A DNA stretch of 64,000 bases, taken from the NCBI RefSeq assembly GCF_009936035.1, contig NZ_QWEO01000009.1, forward strand, positions 31,274 through 95,273. Reading direction: 5' to 3'. Shown one piece after another: positions 51,949-63,967 of this stretch. Position numbers and translations under genes: made by a program. Within the stretch, counting starts at the first letter, position 1; every line of letters begins with the position of its first letter. The notes under the pieces were generated by a model that saw only the letters and a list, made by a program, of their open reading frames with translations, ran no database searches and had not been told where the DNA came from. This stretch comes from Neglectibacter sp. X58 (GTDB lineage Bacteria > Bacillota > Clostridia > Oscillospirales > Acutalibacteraceae).

Positions 51949-52111
51949 AGAGTCTGTCTTAAAACTCCGAAAAACCGTATTTTTGTCCAGTGACAAACGG
52001 TTTCTGTGTTAAAAATCCTCGAAATACGAAAGTGTTTCTTGCGGTTTTCGCCTTGAAACCGCCCGCCCTGAACAAAAATACTGGCATTTCTCCGGTTTTA
52101 AAACAGACTCT
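51949..52111 (+). repeat. R1 element, copy C (163 bp)
   Basis: Ends AGAGTCTGTCTTAAAAC and the complement of AGAGTCTGTTTTAAAAC; a TA lies at both borders. Core GTTTCTGTGTT, AATCCTCGAAATACG, GAAAGTGTTTCTTGCGG, GCCTTGAAACCG is shared with copies A, B and D. Confidence 0.8.
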
Positions 52112-52255
52112 AGAGTGTACAGCTTCTAAATTTAAATTTCAGGCGAAAAGTGGCCATAGATTGGGGAGGGCTTTTACGTTGTTTATTCCCTTGGTATTTT
52201 TTTCGGGCTTTCTTTTTTGCTTGTCCCTGTTTTTGAAAAAAATCTGCGGGAAAGA

Positions 52256-52284
52256 TTGACATGTGAACAAATGTTTTGTATTAT
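52256..52284 (+). promoter_or_regulatory. Strong sigma-A promoter of radC-uvrB-uvrA
   Basis: TTGACA (52256-52261), 17 bases, TATTAT (52279-52284). The 17-bp inverted repeat begins at the end of the -10. Confidence 0.65.
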
Positions 52285-52332
52285 ATAGTCATGCAGCTTG
52301 GAAAGAGTATTTTTTAAGCTGCATGACTATAT
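52283..52332 (+). promoter_or_regulatory. Perfect 17-bp inverted repeat in the radC leader
   Basis: ATATAGTCATGCAGCTT (52283-52299), 16-base loop, exact complement (52316-52332). It overlaps the -10 end and start site and is a candidate operator or mRNA hairpin. Confidence 0.75.
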
Positions 52333-52429
52333 GGATTTGAGAAAGCTCCTGGCAGTTCTTTGTTGAAAAGAAAGGGGCTGCCAAGGCTTCCGACAAATAC
52401 GGCGTTAAAAGAACGGGAGGTGCCTGGGG

Positions 52430-53188
52430 ATGGCAAGAACGAGAAAGAAAAGCGCAGGGCCTTCCGCCATGGAACTGCGGCAGAGGGCGGTTTTGGACAA
52501 GCTGCTCTCCTGCCTGCTGCCTCCGGAAACCGCGGCCCGGGCTGCGGGAGAGCTGCTGGAGGTATTTGGCAGCCTTTCAGAGGTGCTGGTTGCCCCGGAA
52601 AAGGAGCTGCTGGAGATTGCAGGGATGAACAGCCCCGCTGTCCGCCTGCTGGGCGCTACAGCGGAAGCGGCGAGAGAGACCCTGGAGGATCAGGCCTCTG
52701 GGCTGCGGCGTGTGTATGATACAGAATCTGCCGCTTCCGTCCTTTTTCCCAAGCTTGCGGGACGGAAAACCGAGGCTGTGGTGCTGCTGCTCCTGGACGG
52801 GCAGAAGCGGGTGATATACAACAATATTGTGTGCGAGGGCGCTATCAGCGAGGTGCCTATGTATATCCGCAAAATCGTTTCCCTCTGCATTGACCATGAC
52901 GCGGCTTTTGCCCTGCTGGCCCACAACCATCCCAGCGGGCAGGCCATGCCCTCCCGCAATGATGTGGTTGTCACCCGGCAGGTGGAGCTGGCTTTGGAGA
53001 GCGTACAGGTTCCCCTGTCAGACCACCTGGTGTTTGGCAGCAACGGGTGCTTTTCCTTTGCTGCCAGCGATGCCTGGAACCAGGGGCGCATGGATATGTG
53101 GGATTTCCAGCGGGAGCAGTTGGAAATCGCCAGGGCCATGGAGCGGGAATATTTAGAAAAACAGGGAGGGCGCGGGGATGGATTTTAA
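52430..53188 (+). CDS. radC: RadC (JAB-domain) protein
   Basis: 252 aa. The N-terminal helix-hairpin-helix part (LLEVFGSLSEVLVAPEKELLEIAGMN) is followed by the JAB/MPN metal motif: the conserved Glu, then LLAHNHPSGQAMPSRND. The protein is widespread and linked to DNA repair or competence, but its activity is unsettled. It overlaps uvrB by 11 bases, so the two are coupled; radC before uvrB-uvrA forms a repair operon. The frame begins at ATG 52430 and the GGAGG lies upstream. Confidence 0.9.
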   Translation: MARTRKKSAGPSAMELRQRAVLDKLLSCLLPPETAARAAGELLEVFGSLSEVLVAPEKELLEIAGMNSPAVRLLGATAEAARETLEDQASGLRRVYDTESAASVLFPKLAGRKTEAVVLLLLDGQKRVIYNNIVCEGAISEVPMYIRKIVSLCIDHDAAFALLAHNHPSGQAMPSRNDVVVTRQVELALESVQVPLSDHLVFGSNGCFSFAASDAWNQGRMDMWDFQREQLEIARAMEREYLEKQGGRGDGF

Positions 53189-63346: not shown

Positions 63347-63575
63347 GAGCTTTTTTGCTTTTATCCTTATGAAGGATGCCAGATTCAGAAATTGGAAAGA
63401 TTTGTAAAGGGATTGTAAGCTTTTTTTATGAAACTGTAAAAGAACCTCACATGTTTTTGTAATAAACTGGTGGTAAAATTCATATTGTTAGATGGTTTGG
63501 GTGACAGGCCTGCTTCCAGGTAGCGCTTGGCTGGCCCGGGCCTTAAAATTTAAAAAGCAAAGGGGAAAAAACAAA

Positions 63576-63722
63576 ATGAAGAAAATCGCTTTGGCCCTTG
63601 CGGCCCTGATGATGGCTGCCACCATGGCGGCCTGCAGCGGAAATGACGGATCCTCTGCAAGCTCTGCCGCTTCCAGTGCCGGCAGCACGGTTTCCACCGC
63701 CAGCACCAGTTCAGCAGCATAG
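63576..63722 (+). CDS. Tiny Ser/Ala-rich lipoprotein
   Basis: 48 aa from ATG 63576 (AAAGGGG nine bases upstream). MKKIALALAALMMAATMAAC has a short hydrophobic signal and a lipobox-like MAAC, so Cys20 would be the lipid-modified residue. Only 28 residues would remain: SGNDGSSASS and mostly Ser, Ala and Thr. A strong terminator follows. Function unknown; similar Ser-rich mini-lipoproteins exist, but I cannot name a family. Confidence 0.6.
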   Translation: MKKIALALAALMMAATMAACSGNDGSSASSAASSAGSTVSTASTSSAA

Positions 63723-63747
63723 CTTTCTGTTTCTTGTTCATACCCTC

Positions 63748-63783
63748 AAAAAATGCAGGGCCTCCAAAGGCCCTGCATTTTTT
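63748..63783 (+). terminator. Strong intrinsic terminator after the tiny lipoprotein
   Basis: AAAAAATGCAGGGCCT, short loop, AGGCCCTGCATTTTTT. Confidence 0.85.
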
Positions 63784-63804
63784 GCGCTTTTTTAAACAGA
63801 CTCT

Positions 63805-63967
63805 AGGGCTTGTTTGAAAAATTGTAAACACCGTCTTTTTGCCCCAAACGGGCGGTTTCTGTGTTGAAAATCCTCGAAATACGACAGTATTTCTTGCGGT
63901 TTCCGCCTTGAAACCGCTCCCTTTGGAACAAAAATTCCGGTACCTCCTCTATTTTCAAACAAGCCCT
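63805..63967 (+). repeat. R1 element, copy D (163 bp)
   Basis: Ends AGGGCTTGTTTGAAAA and its complement; TA at both borders. Core GTTTCTGTGTTGAAAATCC, TCGAAATACGACAGTATTTC, TTGCGGTTTCCGCC matches copy C with different ends. It is preceded directly by TTTTTTAAACAGACTCT (63788-63804), the right-end sequence of a copy-C-type element. Confidence 0.8.

Follow-up and report, generated by a model that had tools for sequence, protein, structure and literature searches.

The DNA analysed here (the window, 64,000 nucleotides) is part of contig C161 in the 3.36 Mb draft genome of Neglectibacter sp. X58. Four copies of a short repeat, R1, had been placed in it by an earlier note, and all four (A to D) were located at those positions. 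The range on which that note had centred, 51,949-63,967, runs from copy C to copy D, and the 12 kb between them hold ordinary genes, including those for RadC, UvrB, a nitroreductase, a TPP enzyme and Band 7 proteins. A HAD-phosphatase ORF terminates on the first TAG of copy A. The coordinates of the features are collected in Table 1, where those of copies A-D include two flanking bases per side. The stems and loops quoted earlier for A, C and D agree with the sequence; the tip stem of copy B, for which none had been given, is partly broken (GAAATAC/GTAATCC). Copy C is 98% identical to one other copy elsewhere in the genome. In a search for an empty site, the joined flanks of copy A gave no alignment across the junction in any of 28 congeners, and the genes on either side do not stay neighbours. 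The window also holds another short repeated palindrome (TTTCAATCAAATATAATAGC.., 3 copies in the window, at 25966-26109 and 9707-9741) and an inverted pair of another kind, ~110 bp long and with TTCAAAAGAGGTA arms (23268-23375 and 39761-39867), perhaps another MITE family.

Table 1. R1 copies, end remnants and structural parts of the core in the window. For parts of the core, the strand is the folding strand and letters are given as read on the plus strand.
Feature	Position	Strand	Description
Copy A	1793..1956	+	class a ends GAAGCTGTACCAATAGG..CCTATCGGTACAGCTTC; TTA target duplication
Copy B	11530..11693	-	class a ends; tip stem partly broken; flanking triplets unlike (TAA/TGA)
Copy C	51948..52112	+	class c ends GAGTCTGTCTTAAAAC..GTTTTAAAACAGACTC; TA target duplication
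Core of copy C	51997..52062	-	P3 pairs 51997-52004 with 52055-52062
Loop A, first side, copy C	52005..52010	-	TGTGTT
P2, first arm, copy C	52011..52018	-	one bulged base; pairs with 52043-52049
P1 (tip stem), first arm, copy C	52021..52027	-	GAAATAC
P1, second arm, copy C	52032..52038	-	GTGTTTC; loop 52028-52031 GAAA
Loop B, second side, copy C	52039..52042	-	TTGC; first side TC at 52019-52020
P2, second arm, copy C	52043..52049	-	
Loop A, second side, copy C	52050..52054	-	GCCTT
Class a end remnant	52113..52128	.	adjoins copy C; GTACAGCTTCT at 52117-52127
Class c end remnant	63790..63805	.	AAACAGACTCTA at 63794-63805; copy D sits on its terminal TA
Copy D	63804..63968	+	class b ends GGGCTTGTTTGAAAAAT..CTATTTTCAAACAAGCCC; TA target duplication
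P1 of copy D	63876..63893	-	GAAATAC / GACA / GTATTTC

The R1 copies are MITEs. A DNA search of the own genome gave 43 matches, and a core pattern allowing up to 3 mismatches was found at 45 places, against 0 for a reversed control pattern. Terminal inverted repeats delimited both ends in 44 of the 49 candidate places; the remaining 5 were chance matches of a looser pattern. Four own cores that this looser pattern missed (L076, the second core of L068, L236 and L237) were found later and stand outside the 44. The delimited copies fall into end classes a (13), b (19), c (6), d (2) and e (2), and 2 have mixed ends. The elements are 164-227 bp long and carry no transposase gene. Most copies have a target-site duplication that is identical on both sides: 3 bp, TTA or TAA, in class a (identical on both sides in 10/13), and 2 bp in the other copies (identical in 27/31; 25 TA, 1 CA and 1 TT). 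No 20-mer in the 60-bp flanks was common to any two of the 44 copies. A scored ORF stops exactly on the terminal TAG/TAA of the element in 14/44 copies, copy A included, because the target TA and the first G make a stop codon.

The statement in the earlier note that the ends differ between copies was right; A and B belong to class a, C to class c and D to class b. L007 is a clear chimera, its left end being of class b and its right end of class c. L061 joins a class e left end to a class d right end, two ends that are alike anyway. The second element at L397 in genome G124 looks by eye like a further chimera (class c left, class b right). At four loci of that genome (L384, L386, L391 and L397) copies lie end to end with one TA in common, which looks as though the terminal TA of an existing copy serves as the target of a new one, and copy D lies likewise on the class c remnant. 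Core-less derivatives exist, so the core is dispensable for the persistence of the ends. Palindromes of ~35-50 bp at L241, L242, L249 and L250 are composed solely of both class a ends, and L242 resembles a deletion between GTGC repeats at the hairpin foot. Extra small palindromes, of the GCATRTATGCG type or ATTCCRTAAACGGAAT, occur beside the core or at the tip stem in L012, L013, L038, L042, L049, L057, L064 and L069; L053 and L061 carry another insert.

The core consists of three stems (P3, P2 and the tip stem P1) and two internal loops (A and B). The earlier note had claimed compensatory changes in the internal stem, and these are seen well beyond the copies that it compared. The own-genome core alignment (A1) holds 34 of the 44 copies, 33 of them distinct; 10 were left out for length, since they carry long inserts. 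Over the three stems 88.7% of cells were paired, against 76.3 in shuffles. Changes on both sides occurred in 13/22 pairs, with a covariation score of 0.295 against 0.097, and the pairing collapsed once the register was slid. Among 84 diverse copies from many genera, double changes were found in 22/22 pairs, 88.8% of cells were paired against 63.2, and the covariation score was 0.562 against 0.131; this larger alignment was fitted to the model and so leans to the structure, whereas the own-genome alignment was not model-fitted. RNAalifold, run on the plus strand as read, preferred an alternative hairpin GCGG/CCGC; its 4 pairs show no double change, P2 has them, and P2 was kept.

Kinship among the copies was allowed for by a tree-aware test, in which a tree of the 84 copies was built, changes were placed on it by parsimony and these were permuted over the branches (400 permutations). 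The pairs of the structure showed 127 simultaneous changes where 32.5 were expected, which supports the earlier proposal of selection on a structure rather than simple descent. Taken one by one, 11 of the 19 testable structure pairs lay above every one of the 400 permutations, as did 4 of 2215 pairs outside the structure; among the best of the latter, two are located in loop A, adjoining P2. Lineage alone, which had been named as the finding that would overturn the claim, failed to explain the stem changes. Chance and lineage as their source are ruled out by the shuffles, the slid registers and the tree-aware test taken together.

Mismatches in the stems were sorted by kind, with eight weak rows removed from alignment A3. 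On the plus strand as read, A.C outnumbered G.T mismatches by 65:15 (59 rows, 88% non-redundancy), 35:5 (33 rows, 75%) and 25:1 (17 rows, 65%). An A.C on the plus strand as read is a G.U on the other strand, and therefore wobble is kept mainly on the reverse strand. The same direction was seen outside the core: in the middle of the own arms, wobble on minus versus plus was 36:7 in class a, 58:5 in b, 13:0 in c, 4:0 in d, 6:2 in e, 2:0 in L061 and 5:4 in L007. In the outer 20 bases it was 33:5 in a, 8:0 in b, 6:0 in c, 8:0 in d and 4:0 in L061, while class e (1:2) and L007 (2:4) go against the bias. In 34 non-redundant arms of relatives the ratio was 61:15. These counts are not independent events, the copies being related, and the direction recurs over unrelated families.

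Folding energies pointed the same way. The reverse strand folded better in 43/44 own elements and 97/108 relatives with RNA parameters, and in 43/44 and 100/108 with DNA parameters; the fixed loops may contribute part of this preference. Relatives near a contig end, with N or duplicate were partly skipped, leaving 108 for energies and 101 for arms (34/101 non-redundant). By these sequence-based measures the folding strand is the reverse of the strand read in the earlier note. That note had suggested RNA or a cruciform. The structure is borne out, and the cruciform is disfavoured because it would use both strands alike, yet the reverse strand keeps most of the wobble; the evidence leans to a single strand. 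One strand of fixed polarity accounts for the wobble bias, which a cruciform does not. Covariation above phylogeny and strand-biased wobble, the two marks by which a structured RNA was to be recognised, were both found.

The internal loops hardly change. In 65 non-redundant rows, a set that still contains a few weak ones, loop A was nearly fixed (G 64, T 60, CC 60 and 61, T 61), as was loop B (T 59, C 53, TGC 61/58/56). On the folding strand loop A reads 5'-CAAGGC/RACRCAG-3' and loop B RCA/GA. Outside the loops, conservation is also good at the inner A-T pairs of P2, while P3 and about half of P1 vary freely. In our judgement the loops, purine-rich and with G.A exchanges, suit RNA.

Model R1, built from own-genome copies, was used to search the family at one genome per genus, and the core was found in 47/120 genera. 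A second model gave a match in 94/295 genomes and 59/148 genera of the order. A pattern scan of genome contigs returned 64 stretches, all in records named Clostridia, Ruminococcaceae, Acutalibacter, Oscillospiraceae, Ruminococcus or Bacillota. A draw across the phylum gave a match in 7/299 genomes, namely the own genome, two further members of the order and four genomes from elsewhere, whose matches are weak. At two of the weak loci outside the order (L373 and L379, genome G708), inspection by eye finds both loops retained, flanking a P2 that has ~18 pairs and an unrelated sequence; the other three weak matches outside the order are unconvincing, L375 having just something that resembles loop B. 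L373 and L379 are long hairpins, and the feet of L373 (AAAAAAGG..CCTTTTTT) are terminator-like.

Seven congeners were searched; none of the matches fell in G141, G127 or G147, and the other four gave 2, 13, 26 and 112, the last being the most found in a single genome. Such patchy counts would be normal for an element that moves. Many of the matches are found no more than 100 bases from the end of a contig, so R1 probably breaks assemblies too. No Rfam 15 family scored above its gathering cut-off in the window. When 13 loci were searched loosely against Rfam, no match over an element reached cut-off (for example SQ1002 on the second arm of L314, 23.3 of 128 bits; IS128 across L321, 21.3 of 80 bits, far below cut-off). 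Viral contigs held 0 exact matches to one strict pattern, and copy D had no match among phages. Among plasmids, copy C had one weak match, on a 387-kb replicon of Subdoligranulum variabile, where it is unannotated.

In the own genome a kinship between the arms beside the core can still be made out by eye, so that in this case the ends have diverged or been replaced around a conserved middle. Beyond the genus the same core occurs within elements that have other ends, several types being present in one genome (G003, G008). When the first 20 bases of 15 end types, read by eye, were compared, they fell into 11 groups that could not be aligned together at the 99% level of the shuffle control. By this comparison one core sits inside many unrelated end types. 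L311 is a 330-bp form in which the ends pair into a stem that carries two arms. In L293 and L294 (G003) the second arm of the long form has a weak hairpin that resembles the core but is reversed in orientation (E 0.51).

A DDE_Tnp_1 search of the own genome gave 7 places; at one of them lies L259 (~835 bp), an element in which the frames are broken and the ends match class c. Two elements of relatives carry PF13340 and PF01609 domains in two overlapping frames: L268 (~850 bp), with ends like class b, and L270 (1021 bp), with ends like class c. Class b and class c ends thus match IS5-family transposases. The IS5-family insertion sequences (PF13340 and PF01609) have the same ends and TA target as classes b and c, whereas an R1 element is too short for a transposase gene; the comparison of the two covers their ends. 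Only two end types are tied to a transposase in this way; autonomous-element ends for classes d and e are suggestive only (L264, L281), and among the elements that these searches brought up none was seen for class a. The own draft genome showed no pair of class b ends spaced as in an insertion sequence. For the TATAGTCGATT ends of G008 no transposase was found, and the loci inspected held just more MITEs (8 of 30 loci read, ORFs listed in 2).

The orientation of the copies relative to neighbouring genes was scored with crude gene calls. In the own genome 35 were same-sense, for the plus strand as read, against 18; in relatives the figures were 101 against 139, which is the opposite direction to the own genome (nominal p 0.017), and in one congener 38 against 26. 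No orientation to genes was consistent over the own genome, the relatives and the congener, and with results so inconsistent between genomes orientation was dropped as a sign of co-transcription. A lagging-strand bias was likewise set aside as weak (39 to 25 by GC skew, in the one congener). In or beside copies C and D, no promoter-like site able to transcribe the folding strand was seen: the one minus-strand promoter-like site in copy D points out of the element, those beside copy C start in the left flank and point away, and weak sites beside both cores are on the non-folding strand.

On balance we favour the reading that an R1 copy is a MITE moved in trans, in which the reverse strand keeps a long hairpin, with three covarying stems and two loops, as a likely structured RNA read by a putative cell factor. 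The findings call for one strand of fixed polarity, under selection along most of the element, and for two loops that are read by something. We infer that the single strand is RNA rather than ssDNA. Weighing against this reading are the inconsistent orientation to genes, the lack of a fitting promoter-like site in C and D, the persistence of core-less derivatives, the outer 20 bases of class e and L007, the lack of an Rfam family at its cut-off, and the link of only two end types to a transposase. Loops A and B together would form a candidate binding or processing site, and elements that keep this site may be tolerated or may spread better. The transposases of other elements would move R1 in trans, as the matching ends suggest, and the ends would need to fit only some transposase. 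New ends may be acquired by recombination between copies through the shared core; the chimera L007 shows only that such recombinants exist.

The main rival to the RNA reading is single-stranded DNA. The folded molecule would then be ssDNA of one polarity; its hairpin would form while the DNA is replicated or transposed and would be recognised by a protein specific for DNA structure. In favour of this, the elements themselves are made of DNA, where G.T wobble and G.A pairs are likewise stable, and DNA parameters give the same strand preference as RNA parameters; in addition, some of the mini palindromes look like slippage across a hairpin, and there is a likeness to other mobile elements that depend on a single strand. 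The matching insertion sequences, however, bear DDE-type transposase domains, and DDE-type transposases act on double-stranded ends. A strand-dependent process would also be expected to leave a bias of orientation to replication, and that found by GC skew is just the weak one of the single congener. We regard ssDNA as an unlikely, though serious, candidate for the folded strand.

It is less probable still that R1 is an ordinary MITE with hairpin transcripts of the NEMIS/Correia or ERIC-like kind, which would affect messages through generic double-strand cleavage, and that its core is kept only by kinship. Size, ends, TA duplication and stable hairpins all fit MITEs as they are presented in the relevant parts of published accounts (PMC2229807, PMC10969869). 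Generic cleavage has no need for invariant internal loops, and yet loops A and B are retained where P2 differs in sequence and, at two loci in a single genome from outside the order, also in length; kinship is hard to square with covariation that exceeds lineage and with a core that crosses 11 end groups. That the fold is under no selection, and that intrastrand template switching in quasi-palindromes changes both arms together, is very improbable: such switching would account for compensatory changes and for inserted palindromes, of which the copies show several, but the non-complementary loops should be lost under it and instead persist throughout the order, and it offers no evident reason for wobble mainly on one strand.

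Comparison with known systems places the preferred reading, a MITE carrying a structured RNA, near several families of small mobile hairpins. We know of no integron attC-like, REP/RAYT, K-turn, SRP-like or small-ribozyme structure that matches R1, and REP/REPIN with RAYT was set aside because of the target duplications and the IS5-type ends. The Correia/NEMIS/CREE elements of Neisseria are described, in the sections that treat them, as mostly 104-108 or 153-157 bp long, with inverted ends, a target duplication and a characteristic core; their transcripts form hairpins bound by RNase III, and they have one end family (the 26-bp Correia repeat) and are reported from Neisseria only (PMC2649163, PMC2229807). 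R1, in contrast, combines a single core with many end groups across an order, and its covariation is strand-biased. The CIR elements of Caulobacter and Brucella have a conserved two-armed RNA secondary structure and are listed without terminal inverted repeats in the passage on them (PMC2229807); the long form L311 also folds with two arms, a likeness by described structure. In pneumococcus, RUP, BOX and SPRITE are multicopy, probably mobile and form hairpin transcripts, BOX being modular, and among streptococci they are reported to be nearly confined to pneumococcus and S. mitis; the passage that treats them describes no core common to unrelated end families, in which R1 differs (PMC3049150). 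A covarying core common to unrelated end families is likewise not described in the passages taken from PMC2229807, PMC10969869, PMC2649163 and PMC3049150, and no description of the R1 element was found in the open-licence literature.

Bacterial MITEs are usually described as decayed insertion sequences and recognised by their ends. R1 reverses this picture, having a conserved middle and ends that are exchanged. R1 makes a large candidate RNA class, reaching 112 matches per genome, order-wide and with no Rfam entry, and it raises a testable question, namely which factor reads the two loops. We hold it an evenly balanced matter whether selection has acted on a single RNA motif as its unit for as long as the order has existed; if it has, R1 would be a mobile RNA gene that persists by switching vehicles, taking on the ends of any transposase that is available, while its folding strand and two internal loops remain fixed.
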